Source: Microbacterium pumilum (GTDB lineage: Bacteria > Actinomycetota > Actinomycetes > Actinomycetales > Microbacteriaceae). From it: a stretch of 64,000 nucleotides of DNA. The position numbers and the translations under genes are program-made. Under the pieces are notes generated by a model. That model saw only the letters and a list, made by a program, of their open reading frames with translations, ran no database searches and was not told where the DNA came from. This document shows, piece by piece, positions 25,886 to 42,034 of the stretch. The stretch covers positions 496,001 through 560,000 of the forward strand of contig NZ_BAAAOH010000001.1 of assembly GCF_039530225.1 (NCBI RefSeq). Reading direction: 5' to 3'. Position 1 is the stretch's first letter. Each line of letters starts with the position of its first letter.

Positions 25886-26809
25886 ATGGACGGCCTGCGC
25901 CGCTGGGCTCTCTGGGTCGCCGTCGTGGCGATCCTGCTCGCGCTGCTCGCGTGCATCGGCGCCGGGATCATCATCTCGCCGCCGCCGCTGGGTGACCGGA
26001 TCCAGTCGCTGCAGCAGGACTCGTCCGCGGCTCCCTCCGAGCTCGACCAGGACGACATCGAGGACCTCAGCGCGGACGATTTCGGCGAGAGCGCGGATGA
26101 CCCGCCGGGTCTTGCCATCCCCTACCTCGCCCTGCCGAACGGACTGCTGCTCATCATCGTGGGCCTGATGGCCCTGCCGCTGCTGATCGGCAATCGGATG
26201 ATCCCACTGATAGGCGGGATCGTGAGCGTGCTCGGCGGGCTCGTCGCCGTGATCGCCGGCATCATCATGGCGATCATCGCGTTCGTCGCCCTCCTCGTGA
26301 TGGTCTCGCTCTTCCTCGCGGTGCCGTTCGGCACGCTCGCGTACCTCGCGATCTTCGGGTTCTTCGATATCTGGGCATCCGCCGCGCTGCTCGGGCTCAT
26401 CATGTTCCTGCAGCTCGCGGCGATCGTATTCCTGATCGTCGCCCAGCAGAGCATCCTCGGCAACAAGCGCCTCGTGTTCTGGCTGCTGCTGACCGTGCTC
26501 CTGACATTCGTCGTGATGATCCTGCACTCGATCGTGCCGATCATCCTCGTCAGCATCACGGATGCGCTGGGCGCGCTCATCATCGCGATCGTCGGCGCCA
26601 TCTGGGGGCTCCTGATGCTCATCGGCGGGATCATCTCGCTCATCAAGCAGCTGAACCTCGGGCGTCAGGGGGGCGGCCCTCTCCGCGAGCGCGAAGCGAC
26701 CGAGTCGGCGACGGCAGCAGCCGTGCGCGAGCGCGAAGCGAGCCGACCTGCGACGATGACGTCTCCCGGCTCGACGCCCGGCGCCGGTACCGCACCGGCG
26801 CCTGGTTAG
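25886..26809 (+). CDS. Multi-pass membrane protein of unknown function
   Basis: The 307-residue product has an N-terminal membrane helix, an acidic external segment (about residues 45-75), then seven or so strongly hydrophobic helices rich in Ile/Val/Leu, and a charged cytoplasmic tail (about 250-307) with two LREREAT/VREREAS-like repeats. No family was recognised. It is convergent with the secreted protein that ends the injection-system operon (four-base overlap of stop regions). Confidence 0.75.
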   Translation: MDGLRRWALWVAVVAILLALLACIGAGIIISPPPLGDRIQSLQQDSSAAPSELDQDDIEDLSADDFGESADDPPGLAIPYLALPNGLLLIIVGLMALPLLIGNRMIPLIGGIVSVLGGLVAVIAGIIMAIIAFVALLVMVSLFLAVPFGTLAYLAIFGFFDIWASAALLGLIMFLQLAAIVFLIVAQQSILGNKRLVFWLLLTVLLTFVVMILHSIVPIILVSITDALGALIIAIVGAIWGLLMLIGGIISLIKQLNLGRQGGGPLREREATESATAAAVREREASRPATMTSPGSTPGAGTAPAPG

Positions 26810-27258
26810 CCCTCGGGCTCGACGACGACCACCGTGCACGTGGCGATCAGGACGCACTGGATCGTCATGGTCGTGTCGTCGTCATAGATCGGGACCGGCT
26901 GAGGATCCGAGCACGACAGCGCGGACGCCTTGACCGTCTGGGCCGGATACTCCTTGCCCTCGGTCCGAACGATCACGGTCGCCGGGTCCGGAGCGCACAG
27001 GGTGATCTGCGCAGGATCGGGGAGCGGGATGGCGCAGCCGGCCGCTCCGACGACGAACCCGGGAATGGTCGCATCGGCGCAGTCGGCGTCGGCGACATCC
27101 GCGAAGTCGAGGCTCGGACGCGGGACCAGCCAGCCCAGTCCGCCGCCGACTCCGCCCTGAGCCTGGTCTGACTCACCCTCCGGCCGCAGCGACCCGTAGA
27201 ACAGCACGAGCACCACGGCGACCACGATCGCGACGAGCACGACGATCATGACCTTCAC
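26806..27258 (-). CDS. Single-pass membrane-anchored exported protein at the end of the eCIS operon
   Basis: The 150-residue product has an N-terminal signal anchor (about residues 3-22), a Gly-rich linker and an external domain with six cysteines, likely paired as disulfides. It starts with GTG overlapping the stop of the gpI-like tail gene as GTGA, so it is translated with the injection-system genes. No known family was recognised. Its coupling suggests a link between the tail machine and the cell envelope. Confidence 0.7.
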   Translation of the reverse strand: MKVMIVVLVAIVVAVVLVLFYGSLRPEGESDQAQGGVGGGLGWLVPRPSLDFADVADADCADATIPGFVVGAAGCAIPLPDPAQITLCAPDPATVIVRTEGKEYPAQTVKASALSCSDPQPVPIYDDDTTMTIQCVLIATCTVVVVEPEG

Positions 27259-28112
27259 GCGGGCGGCTCCTCGGGCTCGGGCGGAGGGGGCGCGGGCGCG
27301 GGGACAGGTGCGGGGGCGGTCGCCGGAGCGGGCCCCGGAGCGGCCGCCGGGGGCCTGGCGATCACCACGGTGGGCGCATCACCGTCGACGGTGGCCGCGG
27401 GCGCGACGACGGCCGGGGTCGGGGACTCGGGCTCAGGACCCGCCGGCGGCTCCGCCTCCGGCGCGCCGGTGAGGACGGGCGCAGGTTCACTCCCCGGGAA
27501 GGACGGCTCAGGCGGTGCGGCGGGTCCGCCGACCGGCAGCGTGGGTGCGACGGGGGCCTCCTCGGGGACCGGCTCGGGCGGGGACGTCTCGGGCCCGTTC
27601 TCGAACACGACCTCGGCCGTCACGTGCGCCGGCTTCTCCTGCTGGACGATCCGCTGCACGAGCATCTGGTGGACGACGGCCTCCTTCGGCAGCCTCACGA
27701 CCACGTGGAACGGACGGATGCGGCCCGCGGCGTCCGGCACCTCCTCGTCGATCCGAACGCCGCTCACCCCGGTCGCCCACTCGAGGGCATCGCGCAGTCC
27801 CTGGGCGGTGCCGCGGATGCGCGACAGATGCGCGGCTCCCGCCACGACCTGGCGCAGCCGTCCGACACCCGAATCGAAGCCGCCGGATGTGTCATCCAAC
27901 CACCGCGCAAGATCGACCCATCGCGCGAGGAACGGCACGAAGCGGTCGGGCGTGAGCTGCGGGTCGAAGTAGTCCGGCAGCTGGGCGAGCACCTCCTCGA
28001 CCGGATCCTGCAGCTGCGCCATGACCTCGAGGAGGGTCGCGATCGGCGTACCGGCGACGATCGTGCGCTGGTAGACCTCGGGCAGCAGCCTCGCGATGCG
28101 TTCAGCCTGCAT
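27255..28112 (-). CDS. Phage tail protein I-like baseplate protein with Pro-rich tail
   Basis: The first about 175 of 285 residues match the P2 gpI-type tail domain: LLPEVYQRT, PIATLLEVMAQLQDPVEEVL, FVPFLARWVDLARWLDD and GTAQGLRDALEWATGV. The last about 110 residues are a Pro/Ala/Glu-rich low-complexity tail. The start at 28112 overlaps the baseplate-J gene by 11 bases; the longer frame upstream is a shadow of that gene. In contractile tails gpI-like proteins sit at the baseplate edge and connect fibres, so the disordered tail may reach outward or hold effectors. Confidence 0.85.
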   Translation of the reverse strand: MQAERIARLLPEVYQRTIVAGTPIATLLEVMAQLQDPVEEVLAQLPDYFDPQLTPDRFVPFLARWVDLARWLDDTSGGFDSGVGRLRQVVAGAAHLSRIRGTAQGLRDALEWATGVSGVRIDEEVPDAAGRIRPFHVVVRLPKEAVVHQMLVQRIVQQEKPAHVTAEVVFENGPETSPPEPVPEEAPVAPTLPVGGPAAPPEPSFPGSEPAPVLTGAPEAEPPAGPEPESPTPAVVAPAATVDGDAPTVVIARPPAAAPGPAPATAPAPVPAPAPPPPEPEEPPA

Positions 28113-30663
28113 CGTCGTATGCCACCGTGATCTCGTGGGAGCCCGGTGCGAACAGCCAGTTCGGCGGCAGCGACACCTCGTCACCGAACGCGGCGGGCGA
28201 GGCGAGACGCCACGTGCGCCCGTCCGCGCTGCGGAAGACGCCATCCGGTCCGCCGCACAGCGCGAGCGGCGGGCTCGCGTCGTTCGAGGCCACGGTGAAG
28301 AGCGCCTGGAATGTGCCGTTCTGGCGCAGCGGCAGTCCGCAGTCCCGCGTGGGGGTGCGCCAGCTGCCGCCGTCCTGCCGCGGGTTGGCGACCGCGACGC
28401 CGGCCCGCTCGGTCGCGGCCAGAACCGTCTCGCCGATGAACGCGATGTCGCGGCAGCTTCCGCCGGTCCATTTCGCGCCAGCCGGCTCCCAGCCCTTCGC
28501 ATCGAGCTGCACGCCGAGTACTTCGACGCGCGATACTCCCGCGCCCTCCTCCTCGCCCGTGGCATATGCCCCCGCGTACAGGTAGCGCCGGTTCGCGATC
28601 TCGAGGGTGCGCAGCACCCTGATGTCCTGGTTCTTGAGACCGGTGTTGACGAATGTGCCGGGGCGGCCCTCGGCGAAAGAGACGTACACACCCTTGAGCT
28701 CCTGGGCTGCCGCTGCGACGCACAGCGCGCCCGACGGGTCGACCGAGGTCGAGACGGCGTAGAAGCCCATCGCGGCATCCTCCGCCACCACGAGGATGCG
28801 GTCGCCCACGGCGTCGCCCTGCAGCGGCTGCCGGAACAGGCCGGCATCGGTCGCGAGGAAGGCGTGGGGCGCGCCGTCGATCAGTGCGAGAGCGACCTCT
28901 TCGACGTGCGAGTCGAACTCGCGGATGCGCGCCCACGTCTCGCCGTAGTCCATCGACGCGTGCACCACGCTCGACTCGGTCTCGCCGACGCGAGCGGTCG
29001 CCACCACACAGCCCGGAGCCTCCCGGAGCACAGCGAGGCGTTCCACCGACTCGCCCTCGAAGCGCGCGACGGCGACCCATCCGGTCGAGTCGTCGACGGT
29101 ACGGAAGATCTGCTCGCCGCTCGCCGAGAACCAGGTCTTGCGCTGATTCGGATCCCGGACGATCGACGGAACGACGCGAGGCACGTCCTCGACGATGAGC
29201 GTGACATCCGAGACGTAGCGCACACCGCGCTCGGCCTGCAGGACGTCGTACACCTTCGCGACCCGCAGGTGTTCGCCGAACGGCCAACCCGTCTCGGTGC
29301 CCACCGGCACCGGCGAGAGCACCCGGTCCAGCCGCTCGCGCAGGCGGCGTTCGATCGCCACACGATCCTCGGCACGGTGCACCACCACGGACGCGCGCAC
29401 GAGGGTGCCCTTCAATCCCACCCATGAGACCCCCACGCGCGCACCGATCGGCTGGCGCGAATGAAGGGCTTCGGCGAGCCGCTCGAGCACATTCGGGCTC
29501 ATCGAGGCGGCCAGCGCATCGGCACTCACGTCGCCGCCGTCGCTCGACGGCACGACATACACCTGCACCTCACCCGGCGTGGCCCCCACCCACGCATCGG
29601 CGCGCGTCACGGCACGGGCGCGCGAGACCCCGCCGCTCGCGGCCACCGCGAACTGCTCGTAATCCCGCGCCGTCACCACGCGGTCGAGCGTATGGATCGA
29701 CTGCGGCCCGCGGACCATGGCGTTCTCGAGGGTCTCGCGGTCGCGCCCACCGGTCGCCGCTGCGGGATTCGTCACGGAGACACCCGGCACCGCATCCTTC
29801 AACGTCGTGAGCGTGCCGGCAGCGACGTTGCCCTTCGCCCCGCCGCCGTGGCGGTACCAGGCCACGATGCGCCTGCCCGGACCCGGAACCTCGGCGAGCG
29901 CCACGGCTTGCGCGGTCAGTCCGCCCGCGGCGGCATCGGCGATCTGAGCGGCCGGGGCGAACATGATCACGCCCTCGGCGCGGTCCACGGTGTACAGGTG
30001 TGCCTCGGTCTCGGGACCGGGCGGTGCGCCGAAGTGCTCGGCCTCGGTCCAGATCCGGTACGTGATGCCGCCGGACTCACGGGCGGGCTCGCGATTCTCC
30101 AGCTCCCCGGGCTCGGCCTGCACACCGATCACGAGATCGAACACGTCGCCCGTGGGCAGCGAGATGGGCGGATGGGCGACCCGCAGCAGCTGGCCGGGCT
30201 TTCCCGTCCCGTTGCCGAGGTGTTCGCCGTCCACGACCTCTCCCGCGTACGCGCGGACGGTCGCCGTCTGCTGTCCCACGGCGATGCGGGCGTCATCCGC
30301 CGTCGCGAAGACCGGAGAGTCGGCATCCGATCGCGCCGTCGCGACGCGGCTGCCACGCGGCACGATCACCTCGCTCGTCGCGGGCGCCGACAGCGAGAAG
30401 ACGAGATCGACGGATGCCGCGGCCGGCGGCATGACACGCACCCCGATGAGTTCGAGGAACTGCACGAACGCCTTCTCGGGGATGCGGTTGACCCGGTAGA
30501 GCAGTGTGTCGGTCAGGTACGCGAAGACCTCGAGCAGCGTCACACCGGGATCGCTGGGCGACAGGTCCGTCCACTCCGGACTGCGCGCGGCGATGAGCGC
30601 TTTTGCGTCGGCGACGAGCCGGTCGAAGTCACGGTCGTCGAGGTTCGGGATCGGGAGCGGCAC
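28102..30663 (-). CDS. Baseplate assembly protein J-like, fused to a C-terminal beta-propeller
   Basis: This 853-residue protein begins like eCIS/phage baseplate wedge J proteins (PIPNLDDRDFDRLVADAKALI, DPGVTLLEVFAYLTDTLLYRVNRIPE), and its J region runs to about residue 480. The remaining about 370 residues are a BNR-like beta-propeller with Asp-box motifs (SMDYGETWARI, SADGRTWRL). The start is GTG, two bases after the gp25 stop. The J part forms the baseplate wedge; a propeller is unusual there and could bind a glycan or an effector. Confidence 0.85.
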   Translation of the reverse strand: MPLPIPNLDDRDFDRLVADAKALIAARSPEWTDLSPSDPGVTLLEVFAYLTDTLLYRVNRIPEKAFVQFLELIGVRVMPPAAASVDLVFSLSAPATSEVIVPRGSRVATARSDADSPVFATADDARIAVGQQTATVRAYAGEVVDGEHLGNGTGKPGQLLRVAHPPISLPTGDVFDLVIGVQAEPGELENREPARESGGITYRIWTEAEHFGAPPGPETEAHLYTVDRAEGVIMFAPAAQIADAAAGGLTAQAVALAEVPGPGRRIVAWYRHGGGAKGNVAAGTLTTLKDAVPGVSVTNPAAATGGRDRETLENAMVRGPQSIHTLDRVVTARDYEQFAVAASGGVSRARAVTRADAWVGATPGEVQVYVVPSSDGGDVSADALAASMSPNVLERLAEALHSRQPIGARVGVSWVGLKGTLVRASVVVHRAEDRVAIERRLRERLDRVLSPVPVGTETGWPFGEHLRVAKVYDVLQAERGVRYVSDVTLIVEDVPRVVPSIVRDPNQRKTWFSASGEQIFRTVDDSTGWVAVARFEGESVERLAVLREAPGCVVATARVGETESSVVHASMDYGETWARIREFDSHVEEVALALIDGAPHAFLATDAGLFRQPLQGDAVGDRILVVAEDAAMGFYAVSTSVDPSGALCVAAAAQELKGVYVSFAEGRPGTFVNTGLKNQDIRVLRTLEIANRRYLYAGAYATGEEEGAGVSRVEVLGVQLDAKGWEPAGAKWTGGSCRDIAFIGETVLAATERAGVAVANPRQDGGSWRTPTRDCGLPLRQNGTFQALFTVASNDASPPLALCGGPDGVFRSADGRTWRLASPAAFGDEVSLPPNWLFAPGSHEITVAYDDAG

Positions 30664-30665
30664 GG

Positions 30666-31112
30666 TCAGGCACCCCCTTGCAGTGCGACGTCGGCGATCA
30701 GCCGGTCGGCCGGCCCGCCGAGGCGTGGACGGTAGTCGAGAATCACCTGGAGGCGGTCGGGCGCGTCGGGGACCGGCCCCGCATCGATCGCGAGGATGAT
30801 GACACGCGGCTCGAACCGCTCGACGGCGCGGCCGACGTAATACCTGGCAAGGCCCGCCGCGGTGGCATCGTTCGGCGAGAAGATGAGGCGGGCGAGATCG
30901 CAGCCGTAGTCGGGTCGCATGATCCGCTCGCCGGGGCGGGTCGACAGCAGCAGCATGAGCGCCTGACGGATCGCGTCGGCATCGCGGACGAGCTCGATAC
31001 TCCCGTTCGGACCGACGGACAGCCCGCTGAGGCCGTCATCGAGGTCGGGATGACCGAACCGCCACCCGATCCAGGTGGGCGGTGTGCGTCTCGTCGGCAC
31101 CTGGATCGTCAT
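30666..31112 (-). CDS. gp25/GPW baseplate wedge protein
   Basis: The 148-residue product has the gp25 hallmarks DADAIRQALMLLLSTRPGERIMRPDYGCDLARLIFSPND, including the EIMRPDYG-type motif, and ends with a beta-strand pair. It is the T4 gp25 / Pvc9 equivalent that joins the baseplate wedge to the first sheath ring. The start overlaps the PAAR-like gene stop as ATGA at 31109-31112. The longer upstream frame is a shadow of the spike genes. Confidence 0.88.
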   Translation of the reverse strand: MTIQVPTRRTPPTWIGWRFGHPDLDDGLSGLSVGPNGSIELVRDADAIRQALMLLLSTRPGERIMRPDYGCDLARLIFSPNDATAAGLARYYVGRAVERFEPRVIILAIDAGPVPDAPDRLQVILDYRPRLGGPADRLIADVALQGGA

Positions 31113-31453
31113 GGCGCCTCCGTCACGAGCGTCTGTCCGGGATGATCTACTCGGTACTTGACCTGCCCCTGCGGCGTTCCGTCGGTGAGGCCGGCGAGGT
31201 CGGCGCGCACGATCGGCTTGCCGGCGATCGTCACGAACCCCGACTCGCCTCGCTGCAGATTCACGGTCGTGGTGCACGGCTTGATTCCGACGCTCAGGTT
31301 CGGGCATCCGCCGATCGGTCGACCGACAGGATCGTGGTCGGTCAATACGGGCTGACCCGAGACGAAGACGAAGTCCTCGGGAGCGATGAGATCCAGCTTG
31401 CCGAGCTTGTGCTCGCAGCGGATGTCGGCATCCAGGGTCACCCAGTACCACAT
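31109..31453 (-). CDS. PAAR-like spike-tip protein
   Basis: This 114-residue beta-rich protein carries IGGCPNLSVGIKPCTTTVNL and a GKPIVRADLAGLTDG segment, typical of PAAR-like/DUF4280-type tip proteins in injection systems (Pvc10 role). Its stop and start overlap the neighbouring gp25 and VgrG-like genes by four bases and one base. It should cap the VgrG-like spike and pierce the target membrane. Confidence 0.75.
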   Translation of the reverse strand: MWYWVTLDADIRCEHKLGKLDLIAPEDFVFVSGQPVLTDHDPVGRPIGGCPNLSVGIKPCTTTVNLQRGESGFVTIAGKPIVRADLAGLTDGTPQGQVKYRVDHPGQTLVTEAP

Positions 31454-32994
31454 CAGGCCTGCTCCAGTTCGATGCGATCGGCCTGCAGCCGCATGAGGTG
31501 ACCGGGAGCCTCGAGGACGAGGTCTCCCTCGGCGTGCACGACGATCCCCGTCTCGGTGAGCTCGACCCGGCTTCCGGTCTGATTGCCGATCACGAGGCTG
31601 TCGCCGTCGGCGCTCATGCGCAGCGACTGGCCGGTCGGGAGCCGCAGTCCGTACACGCCGACCGCGCCATCGACGACGCCGACGCCGGGCTCACCGCCAT
31701 CGTTCGTGCGCAGCCCGCCCAGCACCACGCCCCGACCGGGGTCGCGGGAGTCGTGCGCGACGACGACCTGGTCGCCCACATCCGGCTGCAATGCGAGCCC
31801 CTTGCTCTCCCCTGCGCCGAGCGCGATCACCGGAAGCCACTCCGACTCCAGCCCGTCGTAGGCGGAGAGCGCGACGCGCACGCGTCCTCGTCCATCAGGA
31901 TCGTCGATCCGCAGGACCTCTCCGATCGTGATGGCGGATGCCTCACGCCCGGGCGAATCGTCGAGCCGGCGCAGCAGGCGCAGGTGGTCCGGCGTCGTGG
32001 TCGTGACCGTGCACGTGTACCCGCCGAACGAGTCGATGACGTGGTCCGCGGTGAGAAGGACGAACGACCCTGACGCGCCGGAGGTGAGCCCCTCGATGAT
32101 GAGCGTGGTTCCGGGCTCGAGGGCCGGATCACCCTCGATGACCGCCCGCAGCGACCGTCCGGCGGCGCGGTCATCGCCCGCGAGTCCGCGGGCCAGCGCG
32201 TCGAGGTGGGCGGCACCGGCTGTCATCGCCCCGCCGAGGATGCCTTCCGCCGCCCCGGGAGCGGTGGATTCGCCATCCGCCGATCCCGTCGCCACATCGC
32301 CGGTCACGGGGTCCCACCCCATGACGCGCCAGCCCGACCGGTTCGCCAGCGAACTCGACGTCACGGTCGCGTGCAGCAGGGTCTCGCCGTAGACGACCGT
32401 GACCTCGTCGCCCGCGCCCTCGTCGCTGAAGAGCTCGAGAGTGCTCCCGGACGGGTCGACCCGCCACCACAGCCCCGCGCGGCGGGTGATGGCCGTCACA
32501 AGATCGAGAGCGGACCGGCCGTCCTGCACGAGCCTCGGCATGCGAGGCCCTTCCTCGGATGCGTCGACGTCCAATCCCGCGGTCGACGCCAGTTCCCGCA
32601 CGAGCTCTGCCACCGACACGTCCACGAAGACCCTCAGCTGCGAATCGGCCCGCATCCGGTGGGCGGCGTCCTGGCAGCGAGCCGTGACGAGCAACGTGCC
32701 GTCGGCACCGAATGACTCCTCGACCGAGACGATCTCTCCCGTGAAGAGTGCATCCGAGAAGCCCTCGACGGATGCCTCGACCGACGCCCCGAGAGCCAGG
32801 ATGCCCTCGAGCGCATCTGCGTCCGCGGGATCCTCGAACGTGAGCGCGCACGCCGTCGGCGCACTTGCCTCCCGTCGCACCCGGATGCCCGCGAGCAGGG
32901 CGACGTCCACGGCGTCGAGCTCGTCGCCGTCGACGCGCAGTGTCACGCCCGGAACCCGATGCGGTCCCAGGGCAACGGTGGCGGCATCGGTCAT
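31453..32994 (-). CDS. VgrG / gpV-gpD-like spike protein
   Basis: The 513-residue protein has a gpD-like N-terminal region (LLAGIRVRREASAPTACALTFEDP, VSVAELVRELASTAGLDVD, LDLVTAITRRAGLWWRV). An OB-fold gpV region follows (about residues 345-440, ITIGEVLRIDDPDGRGRVRVAL, QPDVGDQVVVAHD), then a C-terminal beta-helix. This is the Pvc8-type central spike. The ATG at 32994 overlaps the LysM-protein stop as ATGA; the frame upstream is a shadow. Confidence 0.88.
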   Translation of the reverse strand: MTDAATVALGPHRVPGVTLRVDGDELDAVDVALLAGIRVRREASAPTACALTFEDPADADALEGILALGASVEASVEGFSDALFTGEIVSVEESFGADGTLLVTARCQDAAHRMRADSQLRVFVDVSVAELVRELASTAGLDVDASEEGPRMPRLVQDGRSALDLVTAITRRAGLWWRVDPSGSTLELFSDEGAGDEVTVVYGETLLHATVTSSSLANRSGWRVMGWDPVTGDVATGSADGESTAPGAAEGILGGAMTAGAAHLDALARGLAGDDRAAGRSLRAVIEGDPALEPGTTLIIEGLTSGASGSFVLLTADHVIDSFGGYTCTVTTTTPDHLRLLRRLDDSPGREASAITIGEVLRIDDPDGRGRVRVALSAYDGLESEWLPVIALGAGESKGLALQPDVGDQVVVAHDSRDPGRGVVLGGLRTNDGGEPGVGVVDGAVGVYGLRLPTGQSLRMSADGDSLVIGNQTGSRVELTETGIVVHAEGDLVLEAPGHLMRLQADRIELEQA

Positions 32995-33929
32995 CGCGTC
33001 GCTCCCGTCGGCAGATCCTCCGGGGCGGGGGGGATGATGAGATCGCGGCCGGCCTCGGGCCAGATGACGTCGTCGAGCACGTTGACGTCCGCGATCCACC
33101 GCCACAGCGCCGAGCGGCCGCCGAAATAGCGGGCCGCGATCTCGGGGAGGGTCTCTCCCCCCGCAGCCGGCCCTTCATCCGACGACGAACCCGCTCCGAT
33201 GACCACGTGGATCGCCGCGGGTGCGGCAGCCGCGATCGCCGCGGCCTCGGCATCCGGGATCGTGACAGGGACGGGCGTCTCGGGCGCGGGAGGATTCGGG
33301 TCGGGTACTCGGACCAGACGCATGCTGAGCCAGGACCGACTGGGCGTGCCGCTCGCGTCGAACCGTTCGAATCGCTCCGCGAGCGACTCGACGACGGCCA
33401 GCACGTTCATCTCCTTGCCGTAGACGACCCGGACCTCCGGAACGCCCCGGCCGCCCTTGTCCGAGTTCTCGGCCAGCTGCCACAGCGGTCTGGTGTGATC
33501 GCGGACGTCGCGGCGCGGCGGCACGACCGCGGTGGAGAGCGGGATGTCCGTGCCGCTCTCGATGGGAAGCGGCGTCTCCGTGCCGGGCTCGGCGATCTCG
33601 ACGTCGCCGGGCTGGAGTGTGCCGACATCCGACCCGCTCGGCTCAGCCGCCACCGGCTCAGCCGCCACCGGCTCGGTCTGAACAGGCGCAGGCGGAGGGA
33701 CGATCGGCGGCGGAAGGAGGTCGAGGTCGAAGAGCAGCTGAAGCTCCAGCTCGGTGCGGCCGCCGCCGGTGTGCAGCAGGGGAGAGTCGGAGCGCGCCGG
33801 ACCTGCGACGACACCCGCGCCGGTGCGGCGGGGTGCGAGGCCCGCGACGCGGCGCTGCACGATGTGCTCCGGGTTGAGCATGCATGTGATCCGCTCGCCG
33901 TCAGGCAGGAGGAAGGCCACCCGCTCCAT
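32991..33929 (-). CDS. LysM-domain tail protein (Pvc7-like)
   Basis: The 312-residue protein starts with a tail/baseplate domain (MERVAFLLPDGERITCMLNPEH). It contains a Pro-rich linker with a direct repeat (VAAEPVAAEP), a second conserved block (VPEVRVVYGKEMNVLAVVESL) and a C-terminal LysM-like module ending in WPEAGRDLIIPP. In eCIS and T4-like tails the gp53/Pvc7 class of LysM proteins joins the tube to the baseplate. The start overlaps the upstream stop as TGATG. Confidence 0.82.
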   Translation of the reverse strand: MERVAFLLPDGERITCMLNPEHIVQRRVAGLAPRRTGAGVVAGPARSDSPLLHTGGGRTELELQLLFDLDLLPPPIVPPPAPVQTEPVAAEPVAAEPSGSDVGTLQPGDVEIAEPGTETPLPIESGTDIPLSTAVVPPRRDVRDHTRPLWQLAENSDKGGRGVPEVRVVYGKEMNVLAVVESLAERFERFDASGTPSRSWLSMRLVRVPDPNPPAPETPVPVTIPDAEAAAIAAAAPAAIHVVIGAGSSSDEGPAAGGETLPEIAARYFGGRSALWRWIADVNVLDDVIWPEAGRDLIIPPAPEDLPTGATR

Positions 33930-35092
33930 CAGGTGCTCCGCTGTTCGTCGATGAGCACATCAGCAGGCGATGCGCCCTCCCATGCGAGCGTTCCGCCCGA
34001 GTCCATCGGCGGTGCGCTCCATGTCGAAGGAGGCAGCTCCGGCCACGGCGCCGGCCTCGTGAGGTCGCCCCTCGAGATCCGCACCGCCGGTGCGATCGAC
34101 GCGGGCCCCGGCGTGCGAGACCGGGGGGCCTGCTCGATCCGGTCCCGCGACGGGGCGACGGAAGCCGCAGGACGGGGCTGCGCCGGCCAGGACGGCTCGT
34201 GCGTGTGTTGACGGGCGGTCGCTGCCACCTGGGGCGCCGGGGTCGTCGCCGCGAGCGGCGAATCCCGGACCGGCCGCGACGCGACGGCGATTCGCGGCGG
34301 TGAGGAGTCGGGTGAGGGGACGAGCGATGGCACGGGCGACGGCGGTGTGAGGCCGGCATGGTCCGGCCGCGCAGCCTGCACGTCCTGCTTCGCGCCGCTT
34401 GTGCGGCGGTCGTCGAAGTGTTCCTGACCGGTCTTCGCCGCGCGGCTGCCGACGTCCGCTGTCGCACCCGATTCGGCGAGTCCCGCCACGGTCGGCGTTC
34501 GCGGGCCCTTCGGATCGGCGGCGCGCGGCGGCTTCGGGTTCGACTCGCTGGGAGTCGCACTTGCGGCGTCGACGCCACGACGGCCGTCCTCCGATGCCTC
34601 CCGGTCGGAGACGTGGCGCGATCGCCGGCGGAATGAGATGCGCGACGGCCGCGCGGGCCGACCTGCGGGCAGCTCGGCGGCGGTGGGCTTCCCGCGCGCC
34701 GGTCGCCGGCGGCGCCGGGGTGGCTCGGATGCGGCCGACGAACCTCGGCCGGCCGCTGGGGACTCCTGCGTCTGCGGAGCGCGAGTCGCGGCGGTGGCCT
34801 CTGCCGTCGGCCACGGCGGCAGCGCGCCATCGCCGCCCGGCCAGCCCGGTTCCGGTGCGTCGCCCGTCAGATCGAACGAGAACCACTCCGGATCCTGCGC
34901 GGCGACATACGCGGCGATCCCCGGATCGACGCCCGCGAGTCGCGGGTCCTTCGGCAGCACCGGCGCCCGCTCGCTCCCGAGCGAGCGCAGTCCCTCGGCG
35001 GCGAGCTCGAGACCGTCGGCGACACGGTCGAAGGCGGTCTGAGCGGCGGCGACCAGTGTCTTCCAGAGACCCGGGCGACGCCCATCAGGCAT
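33929..35092 (-). CDS. Disordered Pro/Arg/Ser-rich protein in the eCIS operon
   Basis: Only the first about 80 residues of 387 look structured (LVAAAQTAFDRVADGLELAAEGL, DPGIAAYVAAQDPEWFSFDL). The rest is low-complexity, rich in Pro, Arg, Ser and Ala. It overlaps the tube gene by eight bases and the LysM gene by one base, so it is embedded in the operon and translated with it. It could be a tape-measure substitute, a cargo adaptor or an effector loaded in the tube; no family was recognised. Confidence 0.7.
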   Translation of the reverse strand: MPDGRRPGLWKTLVAAAQTAFDRVADGLELAAEGLRSLGSERAPVLPKDPRLAGVDPGIAAYVAAQDPEWFSFDLTGDAPEPGWPGGDGALPPWPTAEATAATRAPQTQESPAAGRGSSAASEPPRRRRRPARGKPTAAELPAGRPARPSRISFRRRSRHVSDREASEDGRRGVDAASATPSESNPKPPRAADPKGPRTPTVAGLAESGATADVGSRAAKTGQEHFDDRRTSGAKQDVQAARPDHAGLTPPSPVPSLVPSPDSSPPRIAVASRPVRDSPLAATTPAPQVAATARQHTHEPSWPAQPRPAASVAPSRDRIEQAPRSRTPGPASIAPAVRISRGDLTRPAPWPELPPSTWSAPPMDSGGTLAWEGASPADVLIDEQRST

Positions 35093-35582
35093 TGGCCGAA
35101 CCCACCCTCTCGATGCCCTCGTACTTCAGCCCGAACTCGTGGATGTAGACGTCGCGGGCGGTCGCCTGGAGGCGGGCACCCGCGAAGCTCACCGGAAACG
35201 ACCCGGCAAGATCCCACTGCACGACCGGTGTCGTACCGCGTGAGTCCAGCAGGATGATGGAGACCGCGAGTCGCCGGATCTCGCCCCGGAGCGTGGCTGC
35301 GAACCAATCCCACAGCTCCGTCTGGCGGGTCAGCCCCTGCCGCAGGTACAGCGTCTCGTAGCTGGCAAGGGTGGGGATGTGGTGCACCACCTGCGACTGA
35401 CCTGCCTCGCGATACTCGACGGTGTCGATCGTCACCCGCGGACCCGAGCACTCGGTGAAGTGCCCGACGGCGAGCTTGCCGATCACCAGCTTGAAGTTGC
35501 TCGCTCCGAACGGTGCCTCGAACAGAGGCTGGGCCGCAGCCGGGGCCGGCGGCGTCGTGGGAGCAGCGGATGCGTCGCTCAC
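35085..35582 (-). CDS. Contractile tail tube protein (T4 gp19-like)
   Basis: The 165-residue product matches the gp19-like inner-tube family: FKLVIGKLAVGHFTECSGPRV, ETLYLRQGLTRQTELWDWF and WDLAGSFPVSFAG are conserved. Hexamers of such proteins stack into the hollow tube (Pvc1/Pvc5). It starts with GTG at 35582, one base into the sheath stop codon. Only one tube gene is present, whereas many eCIS carry two or three. Confidence 0.92.
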   Translation of the reverse strand: MSDASAAPTTPPAPAAAQPLFEAPFGASNFKLVIGKLAVGHFTECSGPRVTIDTVEYREAGQSQVVHHIPTLASYETLYLRQGLTRQTELWDWFAATLRGEIRRLAVSIILLDSRGTTPVVQWDLAGSFPVSFAGARLQATARDVYIHEFGLKYEGIERVGSANA

Positions 35583-36905: not shown

Positions 36906-37628
36906 TCAGACGGATTCAGGTATGGGGAGAGCGAGGTCCCCGAGGTCGCCGCCGGCTCGCTCGAGCGGCGCATCGACGGTGAATGTGCGCGCCACACCGC
37001 GGGCACGGACGCTCAGACTGAGCGGACCGCCCTCGACGGTGGCGACGGGGAGGCGGAACCGGCCGCGGTGATCGGACATCACCCACGCACCGGAATCGGC
37101 GAAGGCGATGCGTGCGGAGGCGAGCGGTCGACCGTCGGATGCCACGACCCTGCCGACGACGACGTGCATGTTGGCCGGCATGACGTGCAGCGGCTCCCTG
37201 ACGAGCGGTGCCGTCGGACGTTCCACGATGCGCTGCACCGGCACGCGCAGGATGAAGGCGGGCGCGGGTGCGCGGTCGAGGGCTCGCCAGAGGTCGAGGC
37301 TCGGGCCTGCCGCATCCATCGGCCAGTCGGTGTCGGATGTCGCCGACAGCGCGAGCCCGCTGGTGACCCCGGCGGCGTCGAACATGGCGAGCCCCACTGT
37401 CGTCACCAGCAGGCCGAGCGTGAGTTCGGCGCTGCTGATGTATCGCCGATCCGGCCCCGCCGGGCCCGCGAGCTCGAGGTGGAGCGGGCGGAGCAGCACG
37501 GCGCCGTCTCCGGTGTGCTCCTCGTCGAAGTCGTGGACCACCGGGAGCTTCGTGACGTCGGTCGCCCACGCGCTCACCGGTTCGATGGCACGGGCGAAGT
37601 CCTCGGCGGGCTCAGGGTTCCGTGCCAT
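36906..37628 (-). CDS. eCIS-associated protein with carboxypeptidase-regulatory-like domain (possible tail cap)
   Basis: The 240-residue product has an N-terminal about 150-residue domain of unclear family (RRYISSAELTLGLLVTTVG) and a C-terminal beta-sandwich (GRVVASDGRPLASARIAFADSG, SDHRGRFRLP) of the carboxypeptidase-regulatory type. Its place just before the sheath gene is where Pvc16-like tail-cap genes often lie, so that role is suggested. The ATG at 37628 is chosen; the frame further upstream overlaps another gene. N-terminal similarity to Pvc16 is not obvious by eye. Confidence 0.65.
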   Translation of the reverse strand: MARNPEPAEDFARAIEPVSAWATDVTKLPVVHDFDEEHTGDGAVLLRPLHLELAGPAGPDRRYISSAELTLGLLVTTVGLAMFDAAGVTSGLALSATSDTDWPMDAAGPSLDLWRALDRAPAPAFILRVPVQRIVERPTAPLVREPLHVMPANMHVVVGRVVASDGRPLASARIAFADSGAWVMSDHRGRFRLPVATVEGGPLSLSVRARGVARTFTVDAPLERAGGDLGDLALPIPESV

Positions 37629-37920
37629 ATGCCCACAGCTCCATCGGTGGCGCGAAGGAGATACAGTCCCGGAGGCCCGGCGCCGCCGACCTCGCAGGCG
37701 CGCGGAACCGTGCGGTCTCGCGGACCTTGGCAAGCCGCGGGATGAGACCGATCGTGAGGGACCACACGCGCTGTAAGAGTGCCGACACCGCGTGCGTGAT
37801 ACCGACGATCCGAAGGAGGATCGGTCCGAGGAGGCGGGCCTGCGCCGCGAACGGTGTGCCCACCGCCAGTGCGGCCGACGCGGCAGGGGTCAGGATGGTC
37901 CGGACGACGGGTTTTCCCAT
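37612..37920 (-). CDS. Hypothetical 102-residue protein at the head of the eCIS operon
   Basis: The product is hydrophobic in its N-terminal 60 residues (two possible amphipathic or membrane helices, ILLRIVGITHAVSALLQRV) and overlaps the next start by 17 bases. No ribosome site is clear before the ATG, but a tiny ORF ends six bases upstream, so coupled translation is possible. The family is unknown. It is listed because it fills the space between the leaderless promoter at 38047 and the tail genes. Confidence 0.45.
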   Translation of the reverse strand: MGKPVVRTILTPAASAALAVGTPFAAQARLLGPILLRIVGITHAVSALLQRVWSLTIGLIPRLAKVRETARFRAPARSAAPGLRDCISFAPPMELWAYGTEP

Positions 37921-37926
37921 GGTGGC

Positions 37927-38040
37927 CTAGCTCGTCCCGCCCGCGCGGATTCGCGCGGCGGCGTCCGTCGCCGCCGCGACAGTCGGCAAGCGGCACGAGT
38001 CATGGACCCACTCGCGGCGCCGCGCCCCCCTGGTCGCCAC
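37927..38040 (-). CDS. Possible 37-codon leaderless small ORF
   Basis: A GTG at 38040 opens a 37-codon frame ending in TAG at 37927. The TACCGT -10 box at 38047-38052 puts +1 exactly on this GTG, as for the three paralogous membrane genes upstream, which share the same flanking bases. The Arg-rich product is not recognisable. It may be a true small protein or a leader ORF that couples translation into the 102-residue gene. Confidence 0.4.
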   Translation of the reverse strand: MATRGARRREWVHDSCRLPTVAAATDAAARIRAGGTS

Positions 38041-38046
38041 GGCCAC

Positions 38047-38052
38047 ACGGTA
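38047..38052 (-). promoter_or_regulatory. Extended -10 box for a leaderless start at 38040
   Basis: On the minus strand TGCTACCGT is an extended -10 (TG, one base, TACCGT). The +1 prediction falls on the GTG at 38040. The same TACCGTGTGGCC context recurs before the three upstream paralogues. Confidence 0.55.
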
Positions 38053-38094
38053 GCAGTCGCCGTGCGGGCGCACCAGGGGCGTCGTGGGCCGGCG

Positions 38095-38982
38095 TCAGCC
38101 ACGCTCCCACGTGGTGAACGAGACCGGGAACCCGTCCCCGGTGATGGGGCCGATGGACATCACGGACCAGCGCTGCTGATCGGTCAGCTTCACGCAGACG
38201 AACGTCTCCCGGTCCGGAAGGAGAGTGATGTTCTGGGCATCGATGTCGTCGTATGCGGTGGCGGCTTCACACGCCGCGAACGTCGGCTCGTCGACGACGG
38301 CGAGACGCGGCGGACCCTGCCCGACGACGCCCAGCTCGCCCGAGCCGCCGCCCTGATAGAAGTACACATCCACTCCGTCGGTCGGCGTGGTGGTCGAGCG
38401 ACTCTCGTCGAGGTCGAAGTACATGTTCGGCGTGGCGAGGAACAGGTCGGACAGGAATACCGGCGGCTCCTCCGCCGCCGTCTCGGTGGGAGTGGGGTCT
38501 GGTCGGGTGAGATTCCAGATCAGGATGCCGCCACCCACCAGCAGCAGCAGGGCGACCGCCGCCACGATCACGATCCACCAGGGGAACCTGCGCTTCGTCG
38601 GCGCCGGCACCTGGAACGTCACCGTCGGACCCGACACCACCTGATCCGGCGCCTCTTCGAGTGCCGCACCGACCGCGAATGAAGAGGGGCCGGCCGGAGC
38701 CTGCTCGGGGACTTTCAGTGCGACATCCACCGTCGCACTGCCGGCCACCGGGAGCGCCCGCTCCGACTCACCCACGACCTGGAACCAGGACGCATCCGCG
38801 CCCGCGCCCGGCAGCACCAGCATCCGCGCCCGCACCGGGCGCCCCGTCACGTTCGACACGGTGAACGAGCCCGATCCCGAGCGCGTGGAATCCAACGACA
38901 CGGTCGACGGACCCGCCACTGCAAACGGAGGCCCCTGAGCCGCCTCAGGTCCTACCGGACCGAAACCATCACCGCCAGACAT
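38095..38982 (-). CDS. Membrane protein paralogue 1 (cytoplasmic Ig-like domain, TM, external domain)
   Basis: This 295-residue protein has no signal peptide. An N-terminal beta-rich domain (about residues 20-125, with FTVSNVTGRPVRARM and WFQVVGESERALPV) is followed by basic KRRFPWW and one membrane helix. The positive-inside rule puts the N-terminus in the cytoplasm. The external part (about 160-295) is specific to this copy and has no known family. It shares N-terminal domain and helix with the next two upstream genes. ATG 38982 is preferred over the GTG two codons earlier because +1 of the -10 box falls on it. Confidence 0.82.
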   Translation of the reverse strand: MSGGDGFGPVGPEAAQGPPFAVAGPSTVSLDSTRSGSGSFTVSNVTGRPVRARMLVLPGAGADASWFQVVGESERALPVAGSATVDVALKVPEQAPAGPSSFAVGAALEEAPDQVVSGPTVTFQVPAPTKRRFPWWIVIVAAVALLLLVGGGILIWNLTRPDPTPTETAAEEPPVFLSDLFLATPNMYFDLDESRSTTTPTDGVDVYFYQGGGSGELGVVGQGPPRLAVVDEPTFAACEAATAYDDIDAQNITLLPDRETFVCVKLTDQQRWSVMSIGPITGDGFPVSFTTWERG

Positions 38983-38988
38983 GGCCAC

Positions 38989-38994
38989 ACGGTA
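38989..38994 (-). promoter_or_regulatory. Extended -10 box for leaderless paralogue 1
   Basis: On the minus strand TGATACCGT gives an extended -10 with +1 on the A of ATG 38982. No ribosome-binding site lies between. Confidence 0.6.
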
Positions 38995-39027
38995 TCAGCG
39001 ACCCGAGACGCCGTGACAGACCGAACG

Positions 39028-39891
39028 CTATTCCCAGACCGTCGCCTTGACCTCTCGGCTCTGATCGGGCTGCGTCGGGCCGAATTCGAGCACCCCCGCG
39101 TGCCCTTCGCTGGTGAACACGCAGACGAAGGTGCCGTCGTCGGCCTCGGGGACCTCGACGAACTGCTGGAGGAATACGTCCCGGCACTGCTCGAAGGTCG
39201 GCGCAGGGATGAAGGCCACTCCTCGCATGTTGCCGAACACGGTGGTCGGTCGCCCGGCGGGAACCGCGGGTGAGAGGTCGGCATCGGAGAGCTGGATGTC
39301 GGTCACGCCGTCGAGGTCCAGGTCGACGTCACGGGTGGCGGTGTCGAACAGGAACGTCTCCGACCGCAGGACCGCGGGTCCCGTGTCGGTCGGACTGGGC
39401 TGCGGGTTCGGGCGGGTGAGGTTCCAGATCAGGATGCCGCCACCCACGAGCAGCAGCAGCGCCACCGCGGCGACGATCACGATCCACCAGGGGAACCTGC
39501 GCTTCGTGGCCCCCGGCACCTGGAACACCACCGTCGGACCCGAAACCACCTGATCAGGTGCCTCTTCCAGCGCCGCGCCGACGGCGAACGAGAAAGACCC
39601 TGCTGGCGCCTTCTCCGCCACCTTGATCGCGACATCCACCGTCGCCGTGCCTGCCAACGGCAGCGCACGCTCCGACTCCCCCGTCACCTGGAACCACGAT
39701 GCATCCGCACCCTCGCCAGGCAGCACGAGCACGCGCGCCCGCACCGCACGTCCGGTCACGTTCGACACGGTGAACGACCCAGACCCCGTCCGCGCGGCAT
39801 CCAACGACACGGTCGTGGGTCCCGCCACCGAGAACGGCGGTCCCTCCGCTGCGACAGGTCCTGCTGGACCGAAACCCTCACCGCCCGACAT
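39028..39891 (-). CDS. Membrane protein paralogue 2
   Basis: The 287-residue product has the same N-terminal domain (FTVSNVTGRAVRARVLVLPG) and the same membrane helix (RRFPWWIVIVAAVALLLLVG) as paralogue 1, with nearly identical DNA over the helix. Its external region differs: an acidic segment with DVDLDLDGVTDIQLSDADL, resembling a calcium-binding DxDxDG loop, and two cysteines. It starts at ATG 39891, where the -10 box predicts +1. Tandem copies with one conserved inner half and distinct outer halves point to diversification of the outer part. Confidence 0.82.
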   Translation of the reverse strand: MSGGEGFGPAGPVAAEGPPFSVAGPTTVSLDAARTGSGSFTVSNVTGRAVRARVLVLPGEGADASWFQVTGESERALPLAGTATVDVAIKVAEKAPAGSFSFAVGAALEEAPDQVVSGPTVVFQVPGATKRRFPWWIVIVAAVALLLLVGGGILIWNLTRPNPQPSPTDTGPAVLRSETFLFDTATRDVDLDLDGVTDIQLSDADLSPAVPAGRPTTVFGNMRGVAFIPAPTFEQCRDVFLQQFVEVPEADDGTFVCVFTSEGHAGVLEFGPTQPDQSREVKATVWE

Positions 39892-39897
39892 GGGCAC

Positions 39898-39903
39898 ACG
39901 GTA
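39898..39903 (-). promoter_or_regulatory. Extended -10 box for leaderless paralogue 2
   Basis: TGATACCGT on the minus strand, with TTCACC 17 bases upstream as a -35 candidate (39926-39921). The +1 falls on the A of ATG 39891. Confidence 0.6.
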
Positions 39904-39932
39904 TCAGCGACGCCCCTCTCGGTGAACCGTTA

Positions 39933-41084
39933 TCAAGGACCCACTTGCTCGAAGAACCAATCGTTCGTGATCACCAGGTCGTCCTTCTGGATCCACCCGA
40001 TGCATGTCAGGAGTTCCGGCGGATGCAGGGTCGTGATTCCCACCACGCTGCCGATGGGCGCCTGCTCGAAGCCGTCGGGACTCTGGTCCACCACGTCCGG
40101 ATCGCACTCCCCGATCTCGTCGGACGTGGTGCGGACGACCTGGAATCCGGCCGCCGAGAGCAGGGACACCGCCTGGCTGTAGGGCAAGGTCTCGACGGGC
40201 GGCACCTCTGCGGTCGTGGGGGGCGCCGCGACCACCGGATCCGTCATGGCAGAGGATGCCGACGCATTGGGGAGGTCGGAGAGGTCGTCAGGGCCGTCCT
40301 CGCCGAACGTCTCGGGATCGACTCGCACGGCGGTCTCGACGACGCGGATCCGCATGCCGACCACATCCGCACCCACGACGTACGTCGGGCCGCGTGCACT
40401 CGCGGCGTCCTCGCCGGTGCCGACGATGATATCGGCGCACTCTGCGTCGTCCTCGTCGGTGGCGGCATCCGGACACGCTTGCCAGGTGTGCACGAGCACC
40501 GAGTCGTCAGGATCCCAGACGCCGGGAGCGACGGCGAGTTCCGCCCCGACCTGCACCGTGCCCGAGACCGTGGGCGCCTGGCTCATCGTCGGGGCAGCGG
40601 GGGTTCGCATCAGCAGCCAGATCGTGATGCCGCCGCCGATGAGCAGCAGCAGCGCGACCGCTGCGACGATCACGATCCACCACGGGAACTTGCGCTTCTT
40701 GGGCTCCGGAACCTGGAACGCCACGGTGGGACCGGACACCACCTGATCGGGCGCCTCCTCCAGTGCGGCTCCGACCGCGAACGAGAATGCGCCCGCCGGT
40801 GCCTTCTCCGCCACTTTCACCGTGACATCCACCGTCGCCGTGCCGGCGACCGGCAGTGACCGCTCCGACTCCCCCACCACCTGGAACCACGACGCATCGG
40901 CGCCCGCACTCGGCACCACCATCACACGGGCTCGCACCGGGCGACCGGTCACGTTCGACACGGTGAACGACCCGGACCCCGCTCGTGCGCCATCCAGGGC
41001 GACGGTGGACGGACCCGCAACGGCGAACGGTGGACCACCGACCACCGCGGGATCCACCGGACCGAAATCGCCGCCCGACGACAT
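39933..41084 (-). CDS. Membrane protein paralogue 3 with PASTA-like external domain
   Basis: The 383-residue product is the longest copy. The shared inner domain spans about residues 18-126 and the helix about 134-159. Outside lies an Ig-like module with cysteines (about 165-270, PTVSGTVQVGAELAVAPGVW), then a PASTA-like unit (about 305-365, LPYSQAVSLLSAAGFQVV, DVVDQSPDGFEQAPIGSVV). PASTA modules bind peptidoglycan or lipid II, so this copy could sense or grip the cell wall. ATG 41084 is preferred over GTG 41090 because the -10 box predicts +1 there. Confidence 0.83.
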   Translation of the reverse strand: MSSGGDFGPVDPAVVGGPPFAVAGPSTVALDGARAGSGSFTVSNVTGRPVRARVMVVPSAGADASWFQVVGESERSLPVAGTATVDVTVKVAEKAPAGAFSFAVGAALEEAPDQVVSGPTVAFQVPEPKKRKFPWWIVIVAAVALLLLIGGGITIWLLMRTPAAPTMSQAPTVSGTVQVGAELAVAPGVWDPDDSVLVHTWQACPDAATDEDDAECADIIVGTGEDAASARGPTYVVGADVVGMRIRVVETAVRVDPETFGEDGPDDLSDLPNASASSAMTDPVVAAPPTTAEVPPVETLPYSQAVSLLSAAGFQVVRTTSDEIGECDPDVVDQSPDGFEQAPIGSVVGITTLHPPELLTCIGWIQKDDLVITNDWFFEQVGP

Positions 41085-41090
41085 GGCCAC

Positions 41091-41096
41091 ACCGTA
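41091..41096 (-). promoter_or_regulatory. -10 box (TACGGT) for leaderless paralogue 3
   Basis: TACGGT followed by GTGTGGCC-type flank puts +1 on the A of ATG 41084. The TG extension seen in copies 1 and 2 is absent, so strength may differ. Confidence 0.5.
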
Positions 41097-41180: not shown

Positions 41181-41200
41181 CGCGAGGCTCACGCCTCGCG
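41181..41200. terminator. Hairpin at the 3' end of the transglutaminase gene
   Basis: CGCGAGGC and GCCTCGCG pair perfectly around a four-base loop. The hairpin covers the stop codon of the leftward transglutaminase gene and lies just before paralogue 3. No T-run follows, so it may be a weak terminator or a message-end stabiliser. Confidence 0.4.
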
Positions 41201-42034
41201 TGTGATGGTCACCTTCACGTGGAGGTGGCTCTTGAAGGGCCCGGCGTACACGCCGCGCAGCGGCGGCACATCGCCGTAATCCCGCCCGCGGCCGACGAGC
41301 ACGTGACGGTCGCCGATCTCGATGTTGTTCGTGGGATCGAAGCCCTGCCACTCGCCGGCGAACCATTCGATCCAGGCGTGGGATTCGCCGGTGACCGGCT
41401 CACCGACCTCGGCGCTCGGCCGTGGATGCAGATAGCCCGAGACGTAGCGCGCCGGAATGCCGACTTCGCGCAGCGCTCCGAGCGTGACGTGGGCGATGTC
41501 CTGGCAGACGCCCTTGCGGGCTTCCCATGCCTCGTGAGCGGTCGAGTGCACGCCGGTGATCCCGTGCATGTATTCGACGGCATCGCCCACGGCGATCGCG
41601 ATCGCATGCGCGGCCCGCCCGGGATGATCGTGGTCGGCGGCGATCGAACGAGCGAGGTCGGCCACCTCCGGATGCGGCCGCGTGCGGTGCGTCTGCGTCA
41701 TCTGCTCGACGGTCTCGATCGATCGCGACGACTCGCGCGCAAGCATGTGCCACGAGACGTCGACGTGCTCGAGCGGACGCGGCCGCACCTCGACGAGGGA
41801 CCGCGCCGTGATGGTCAGCGCCCCGTGAGGTGACAGAACATCGAACGCGGCGACGCGCGTGCCGAAGTAGTCGACGTACTGGTTGACGGATGTCGAGGGC
41901 TCGATGTCGAGCGACGAGTTGAGCACGAACTGGCTGTCGGTCGAACCCGGCAGCATCCGCGCTTCGTTGTACGAAGCCGTCACGTCGCCTTGATAGCTGA
42001 ACCCGGTCTGGTGCTCGATGCGCAGGCGCTTCAT
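41189..42034 (-). CDS. Transglutaminase-like protein
   Basis: This 281-residue protein has an N-terminal beta domain (LRIEHQTGFSYQGDV) and a transglutaminase core with the triad Cys in RKGVCQDIAH, His in ESHAWIEWF and Asp in GFDPTNN. There is no signal peptide, so it works in the cytoplasm. Its start overlaps the alpha-E gene stop as ATGA. With the alpha-E and circularly permuted ATP-grasp genes it forms a three-gene set widespread in bacteria and proposed to make or process a peptide-like product; the product is not known. Confidence 0.92.
   Translation of the reverse strand: MKRLRIEHQTGFSYQGDVTASYNEARMLPGSTDSQFVLNSSLDIEPSTSVNQYVDYFGTRVAAFDVLSPHGALTITARSLVEVRPRPLEHVDVSWHMLARESSRSIETVEQMTQTHRTRPHPEVADLARSIAADHDHPGRAAHAIAIAVGDAVEYMHGITGVHSTAHEAWEARKGVCQDIAHVTLGALREVGIPARYVSGYLHPRPSAEVGEPVTGESHAWIEWFAGEWQGFDPTNNIEIGDRHVLVGRGRDYGDVPPLRGVYAGPFKSHLHVKVTITREA

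Follow-up and report, generated by a model that had tools for sequence, protein, structure and literature searches.

A tandem family of membrane proteins with a common inner half, linked to one clade of contractile injection systems, as candidate particle adaptors

How cytoplasmic contractile injection systems (CIS) locate the membrane and commit to firing is an open question in the field, and it is raised in a concrete form by a locus of Microbacterium pumilum. The window analyzed here, a stretch of 64,000 nucleotides (assembly GCF_039530225.1, contig NZ_BAAAOH010000001.1, positions 496,001 to 560,000), contains a CIS cluster and, on the same strand and directly upstream of its tail genes, a trio of tandem genes for paralogous membrane proteins (38095-41084). 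What might these three proteins do for the injection system next to which they are encoded? The answer favored here, with a probability of roughly 0.6, is that they serve a distinct cytoplasmic CIS clade as bitopic membrane adaptors, which would dock the particle and carry exchangeable outer sensors.

The three genes, which are separated by gaps of 41 and 45 bp, share an inner half and a membrane helix, and differ in their outer halves, as the original prediction had described. The DNA of the inner halves is less alike than the "almost identical" of that prediction, with identities of 79.1, 79.5, and 82.9%. Most blocks of 60 columns within the shared half are 70-90% identical (the first coding block, 62-80%), and the identity falls to approximately 20-57% after the end of the helix. 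The trio accounts for all the significant copies of the inner domain in the whole 4.45 Mb genome, a single contig (the next two matches have E values of 0.13 and 0.27), and its close relatives with species names are mostly from Microbacterium. The residues of the trio (P0001-P0003) are numbered from a GTG two codons before the ATG, which gives lengths of 385, 289, and 297 aa.

In the two proteins of the trio modeled with AlphaFold, those of genes 3 and 1 (mean predicted local distance difference test scores, pLDDT, of 92.3 and 87.0), the inner half is ordered, and is predicted to form an eight-strand sandwich (residues 22-127, pLDDT mostly >90), in keeping with the beta-rich domain foreseen from the letters, followed by a helix (137-161) and the outer part. 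The fold search, which in practice bears on the inner domain, as other parts of the proteins are barely covered, returned tied best matches that include FixG-related, WxLIP, and PapD-type chaperone domains, SPD-2/HYDIN, and the MSP domain of VAP-A, and the modeled fold is of the MSP/PapD type of immunoglobulin-like (Ig-like) domain. Domains of this type are often protein-binding adaptors. VAP, for example, has a cytosolic MSP domain at its N-terminus, held by a C-terminal helix, and acts as a tether for its partners. Identity with the VAP, PapD, FixG, and WxLIP domains is, however, 8-14% in the fold-search rows, and a common fold does not prove a common function.

A single helix is predicted per protein, both from the sequences and in the models of genes 1 and 3, and a hydrophobic helix divides the inner from the outer half in 91 of the 92 family entries. 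The exception, P0039, appears to be a broken copy (on a contig of 313295 bases), in which the inner half is kept, the helix is absent, and the outer half looks frameshifted. Another broken-looking copy, the third of locus L065 (L065 1203-2240), has no clear helix within its open frame. The search of solved structures by sequence gave two marginal matches only (E 0.007 and 0.022), and no name for the trio was obtained from PADLOC or from PHROGs, where gene 3 was the query.

The outer halves had been described as unrelated in all three genes, but genes 2 and 3 have homologous outer domains (29% identity, E 4e-6), which belong to a single cluster of 39 proteins, so the trio has two outer families rather than three. 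This family of beta domains has no Pfam name. The calcium-loop-like segment foreseen in one copy is real, and corresponds to the DxDxDG stretch of gene 2, which is kept in all three aligned gene-2-type sequences (DLDLDGVTD, DLDLDGVQD, and DLDEDGEPD) and resembles a calcium loop by its residues. The PASTA and Ig-like modules were likewise recovered in gene 1, the first over the Pfam cut-off (E 1e-5), and the second, a predicted module, in the model alone. When the outer part of gene 3 was used as the query, 12 proteins were found, each of which has the inner domain before the outer one; 11 were already among the relatives of the trio, and the twelfth, P0104, fits the inner profile at 2e-28.

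Outer modules have been swapped behind this common inner half across the family. Modules with Pfam names were found in ten proteins from seven loci; eight of these proteins have PASTA, and ricin-B lectin, Laminin_G_3, PD40 propeller, and TIG each occur in a single protein. Most of the Microbacterium outer domains match no family. The named modules belong to types that bind the wall or ligands. The ricin-B lectin copy is also over the cut-off for the CDtoxinA model (E 2.5e-6), which is read as the common lectin fold, and the scanned outer halves have no toxin enzyme among their Pfam matches. Like the PASTA Ser/Thr kinases (PknB/Stk1), gene 1 has an outer PASTA behind a single helix. Unlike these kinases, it has an Ig-like domain on the other side of the helix, and no kinase domain was found in it (P0001), the Pfam and NCBIfam matches being to its PASTA part.

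The inner domain is genetically linked to CIS wherever its carriers could be located in a genome. A profile of this domain (A2; 22 sequences, out of 44 non-redundant stretches) was searched in genomes at a threshold of E 1e-6. It was found in four of the 345 genomes of the genus sample, in which the sheath profile matched 25, and all four carriers have a sheath on the same contig. In the phylum sample (296 genomes, including the source genome again), the inner domain was found in three genomes and the sheath in 29, and the three carriers have both on one contig. No unlinked copy was recovered at this threshold from either sample, and no relative of the trio was found in viral contigs. The co-occurrence with sheath genes that the original prediction proposed to check is thus borne out, and the pattern is neither a random spread nor that of general wall sensors, as all the located carriers are linked to CIS and belong to one sheath clade, which disfavors the inner domain as a general sensor.

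A motif scan of a one-genome-per-species collection, based on an FPWWI-type motif (absent from P0016, P0032, P0035, P0039, P0058, and P0061, which were left out of the motif-based sets), gave 17 confirmed inner-domain loci. Their hosts are Chloroflexota groups, Bryobacterales (Acidobacteriota), Caulobacter, Frigidibacter, Methylomonas, gammaproteobacterial bins, Microbacterium Root53 (also present in the genus sample, as G207), and Cryobacterium, which places the family in the Chloroflexota, Acidobacteriota, Alpha- and Gammaproteobacteria, and Actinomycetota. At least one CIS gene is present at all 17 loci, and a sheath in 16 of the genomes, the exception being a metagenome-assembled bin with J and P2_I at the locus. 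A sheath-first search with the sheath of the window covered 119 Caulobacteraceae, 201 Chloroflexota, and 329 Pseudomonadota genomes, and regions were fetched for 20 of the 50 sheath places found there, as for 20 of 31 in the genus sample and 20 of 36 in the phylum sample. Two of the 20 (L076 and L077) have the same gene order and contain the inner domain; the other 18 (L078-L095) have a different gene order and no inner domain within the fetched stretch. Over the 24 carrier loci, one copy is present in 12, two in 10, and three in two (several stretches stop at contig ends), and in 19 the P2_I gene is immediately followed by the first copy.

The carriers also form one sheath clade. Loci with any CIS gene number 78, and 54 of these are without the inner domain, of which 36 are in genomes searched whole (two being second clusters in carrier genomes, L043 in G000 and L064 in G649) and 18 are known by the fetched stretch; four of the 54 stretches extend 1.5 kb beyond P2_I. 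In the sheath tree, the carrier sheaths group together to one side of a branch whose support is 99/99 (15 of 45 rows); the tree left out 10 of the 55 sheath open reading frames (ORFs), in which the first aligned stretch was shorter than 100 residues, has 25 rows that are less than half filled, and does not include L076-L095. Sheath length was rejected as a marker of the clade, given that the complete linked sheaths have 408-445 aa, and six unlinked sheaths, 389-444. The CIS_tube-type protein was recognized in 20 of the 24 carriers versus one of the 54 others (a weak match, in L092), and was unseen in L014, L015, L016, and L019 because that part of the cluster falls beyond the stretch.

The seven-helix membrane protein encoded at the far end of the cluster is present in 18 of the 24 carrier loci versus none of the 54 other stretches. 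Searches of the whole genomes of the other six carriers were positive in four, with the match on the contig of the cluster in G351, on the contig of the sheath in G347, and weaker and apparently on other contigs in G357 and G358, while two fragmentary carrier bins gave no match. It was also absent from all 44 non-carrier genomes searched whole, for which the same query on the carriers served as the positive control. The protein has no Pfam or PADLOC match, and its place within the cluster varies among the loci. It is a second signature gene of this CIS clade and a likely partner of the adaptors, and the two together provide a gene-content marker for the clade.

The inner halves seem to evolve in concert in Microbacterium and one other actinobacterium, while the outer halves stay apart. 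In 20 proteins from nine contigs with an outer domain of the gene-2/3 type, the best inner match is on the same contig in 11 (1.6 by chance; 0 of 5000 shuffles). The best outer match is on another contig in all 20, which is not significant (p 0.30) because chance puts just 1.6 on the same contig. Within contigs, identity averages 5.7 points more for the inner half (p 0.0008) and 6.1 points less for the outer half (p 0.0004), with pairs sharing fewer than 60 residues left out of the identity and synonymous divergence (dS) comparisons, and with a shuffling test that ignores the kinship of the contigs. The inner dS is 0.47-0.73 within three Microbacterium genomes, and 0.82-0.95 between genomes for the same outer type. 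These identities, shuffles, and dS values suggest, therefore, that the inner halves have been homogenized within these genomes and the outer types kept apart. In the tandem pair of G649, the inner DNA is 97.5% identical and the outer halves 44% identical in amino acids, and the high identity runs beyond the helix into the first PASTA.

A cytoplasmic adaptor domain, a helix, and a changeable outer module, as read from these sequences, fit a role in docking and sensing. The N-terminal PapD/MSP-type Ig domain would stay in the cytoplasm, where the particle is also presumed to lie, and would dock it to the membrane, probably via the baseplate, which is suggested as the docking site because the genes adjoin P2_I in most of the loci. 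The helix would cross the membrane, and the outer module (PASTA, lectin, propeller, or the family-specific beta domain) would bind the wall or another surface ligand, and might gate docking or firing. Several copies would allow one machine to answer several outside cues, and the common inner half would keep every copy compatible with the same particle.

The original prediction knew of no described system with this arrangement, but CisA of Streptomyces follows the same plan. In the relevant passages of Casu and colleagues (PMC12237407), CisA (SCO4242) of Streptomyces coelicolor is a bitopic membrane protein needed for CIS contraction, which is proposed to recruit particles to the membrane and maybe to sense stress; it is not in the particle structure, although peptides from it turned up in crude preparations of stressed cells, and it has a reciprocal match in 75 of 120 type IId actinomycete genomes. 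The family described here resembles CisA, as presented in these passages, in its single predicted helix and in the proposed role as an adaptor or sensor of a cytoplasmic CIS, and would do so, in the topology proposed here, in an inner N-terminus and an outer C-terminal domain. The position is also similar, given that cisA lies directly downstream of the baseplate genes, as the family does in the 19 loci mentioned above, but not in Microbacterium. The cytoplasmic part of CisA is, however, reported there to be largely unstructured, whereas an ordered sandwich is predicted here; the outer domain of CisA is of another kind, and in the present family the copies have been multiplied with exchanged outer halves.

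Two large actinobacterial genomes (G554 and G607), presumably of Streptomyces, have an ORF after the baseplate genes that combines a zinc ribbon, a region of low complexity, a helix, and a weak match of the F5/8 type, which accompanies long sheaths and is taken to be CisA from its position and architecture. The inner profile, run at full sensitivity with E values up to 10, matched neither of these putative CisA ORFs (L100/L101) among its best six rows. The best reading is that the trio family would work like CisA but is probably unrelated to it in sequence. The kind of protein, a membrane adaptor of cytoplasmic CIS, is already known through CisA, the sole separate CIS membrane adaptor with functional evidence in the parts of the literature covered. 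The family itself, its clade, the partner gene, and the constant and variable organization appear to be new within the open-access full texts searched, as the relevant passages of PMC8894136, PMC12998442, PMC8213781, and PMC13277306 do not describe the family, and nothing relevant was found in such texts on CIS or extracellular CIS (eCIS) together with PASTA. Roseiflexus, considered from the relevant passages of PMC12998442 as a case without the adaptor, was dropped, as its sheath looks to be of the long type.

A number of observations weigh against the adaptor reading, or narrow it. Basic residues before the helix outnumber those after it in 23 of 36 copies, are equal in five, and are fewer in eight, so the inside-N topology is not uniformly signaled. 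The Microbacterium genes lie upstream of the sheath rather than after the baseplate genes, and a set of several sensors is not general, since half of the carrier loci show one copy, some of them cut by contig ends. The motif-scan set of 17 loci is neither complete nor neutral, because an FPWWI-like motif was required, and the negatives of L078-L095 rest on fetched stretches that rarely pass P2_I. One pair from different Microbacterium genomes, with different outer types, has an inner dS of 0.66, below the 0.73 found within Root53. Caulobacter, in turn, is without recent concerted evolution, and rejects this process as a general rule: in four genomes, the orthologs are closer than the paralogs, inner half included, with an inner dS of 0.46-0.71 within genomes and 0.20-0.51 between them, and the paralogs of the same genome have an inner identity of 81-85% and an outer identity of 14-28%.

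The position after P2_I is also that of a tail fiber, and the trio proteins might be parts of the particle itself, as membrane-inserted fiber or wedge extensions. In the thylakoid-anchored CIS of Anabaena, according to the relevant passages of PMC8894136, the particle is fixed to the membrane by extensions of particle proteins (the Cis12 extension and the helix of the fiber protein Cis13), and dedicated parts would likewise fix the CIS to the membrane here, but as separate genes with outer modules. This alternative is unlikely, as the Ig-like fold and the PASTA or lectin outer halves look like those of cell-surface receptors, the Microbacterium genes are away from the baseplate genes, and the Streptomyces membrane protein at this position lies outside the particle structure, in spite of its peptides in crude preparations, in the passages of PMC12237407 cited above. 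A constant N-terminus, a variable C-terminus, and tandem copies are also features of polymorphic toxins, and effectors with a common loading domain and exchangeable payloads would account for them; we consider this improbable, given the hydrophobic helix between the halves in all but one of the entries, the wall- or ligand-binding character of the named modules (with the reservations of the CDtoxinA match and of the many unmatched Microbacterium outer domains), and the location of the Microbacterium genes upstream of the sheath. The proteins might otherwise shield or plug the membrane of the producer against firing, for which the constant linkage, the several copies, and the polytopic partner could be invoked; nothing speaks directly against such self-protection, which we hold to be rather improbable nonetheless, as a shield would have no need of variable, sensor-like outer modules. 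General envelope-stress receptors recruited beside CIS clusters, acting on transcription or wall synthesis, are very improbable, despite the PASTA modules and weak anti-sigma-factor profile matches in 14 of 30 family members (best 6.9e-5), given the lack of unlinked copies in the two samples, the tie to one CIS clade across phyla, and the lack of any kinase domain found.

The adaptor reading may be extended, more tentatively, to a separate CIS clade in at least four phyla, deployed at the membrane by a modular bitopic family and its seven-helix partner, in which tandem copies with inner halves homogenized by gene conversion would plug exchangeable sensors into one docking domain and act as alternative triggers of a single machine; this wider version is doubtful. 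If the adaptor reading is true, the family would be a second, apparently unrelated answer to the question of CIS membrane targeting and firing, found in both Gram-positive and Gram-negative bacteria, and the named domains, the likely partner gene, and the natural domain swaps make the idea of sensing directly testable.

Coordinates of the trio, its domains, and the adjacent injection-system genes in the window
Feature	Position	Strand	Basis or remark
Paralog 1 (gene 1)	39933..41084	-	383 aa from ATG; PASTA match and AlphaFold model
Gene 1, inner Ig-like domain	~40710-41027	-	
Gene 1, membrane helix	40608-40682	-	
Gene 1, outer Ig-like module	~40305-40598	-	
Gene 1, PASTA	40032-40208	-	
Paralog 2 (gene 2)	39028..39891	-	287 aa from ATG; sequence alignment
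Gene 2, inner domain	~39517-39834	-	
Gene 2, membrane helix	~39415-39489	-	by alignment
Gene 2, outer domain		-	FVCV...TWE family, with DxDxDG
Paralog 3 (gene 3)	38095..38982	-	295 aa from ATG; alignment and AlphaFold model
Gene 3, inner domain	~38608-38925	-	
Gene 3, membrane helix	38506-38580	-	
Gene 3, outer beta domain	38107-38460	-	same family as gene 2
Cap/terminator-position gene, CarboxypepD_reg	36906..37733	-	E 5e-7, just under cut-off; start uncertain; role from position; adjoins sheath in related loci too
Contractile sheath, 431 aa	35582..36877	-	PF17482 E 1.9e-17, PF04984 E 4.4e-17; tree
Inner tube (T4 gp19-like)	35085..35582	-	PF06841 E 9.7e-29
Protein of 387 aa without assignment, flanked by the tube and tube-initiator type genes	33929..35092	-	recognized in 4 Microbacterium-type loci
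CIS_tube-type protein (tube initiator position)	32991..33929	-	PF19266 E 1e-5, just under cut-off; related loci
VgrG-like spike	31453..33105	-	PF04717, PF05954; true start probably inside
gp25-like baseplate protein	30666..31451	-	PF04965; true start probably inside
Baseplate J-like (Cis11 type)	28102..30663	-	PF04865
P2_I-like baseplate wedge (Cis12 type)	27255..28847	-	PF09684; coding part probably ~27255-28100
Small single-helix protein, 150 aa	26806..27258	-	only in Microbacterium-type loci
Seven-helix membrane protein	25886..26809	+	hydropathy count; convergent with CIS genes

The cluster of the window is a CIS of the eCIS-like kind, in which the genes for sheath, tube, spike, gp25, J, and P2_I all occur, and the cap-position gene, the sheath, the tube, and the genes that follow lie downstream of the trio on the minus strand, as had been claimed. 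No capsid match was found among the 18 proteins scanned, and no AAA ATPase in the scanned window proteins from 25886 to 41084, with no search by a dedicated model either here or in related loci. The small single-helix protein comes right after the baseplate genes, the reported position of cisA in Streptomyces, but was rejected as a CisA counterpart: it has 11 matches, including itself, and it is not a general CIS part because those with species names are all from Microbacterium. Elsewhere in this genome lies another contractile cluster (L043, G000:C1:4013327-4016123), which has two sheath frames of 709 and 755 aa, both long, along with tubes, a spike, and gp25, and lacks the inner-domain family.

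A (GA)TACCGTGTG- or TACGGTGTG-type stretch, which resembles the -10 box of a leaderless promoter, lies directly 5' of each ATG of the trio (41084, 39891, and 38982). A similar one lies 5' of the single-copy gene of L046, and none in the two-copy loci L020 and L044; the stretch occurs again near 38050, where there is no clear gene. The genes that directly precede the trio on its strand (41189-44648 of the window) are transglutaminase-like, Alpha-E, and circularly permuted ATP-grasp genes. At least four Microbacterium-like paralogs (P0012, P0031, P0057, and P0068) are found in a record named Micromonospora sp. DT81.3, which may be misnamed or may have received the cluster by transfer.

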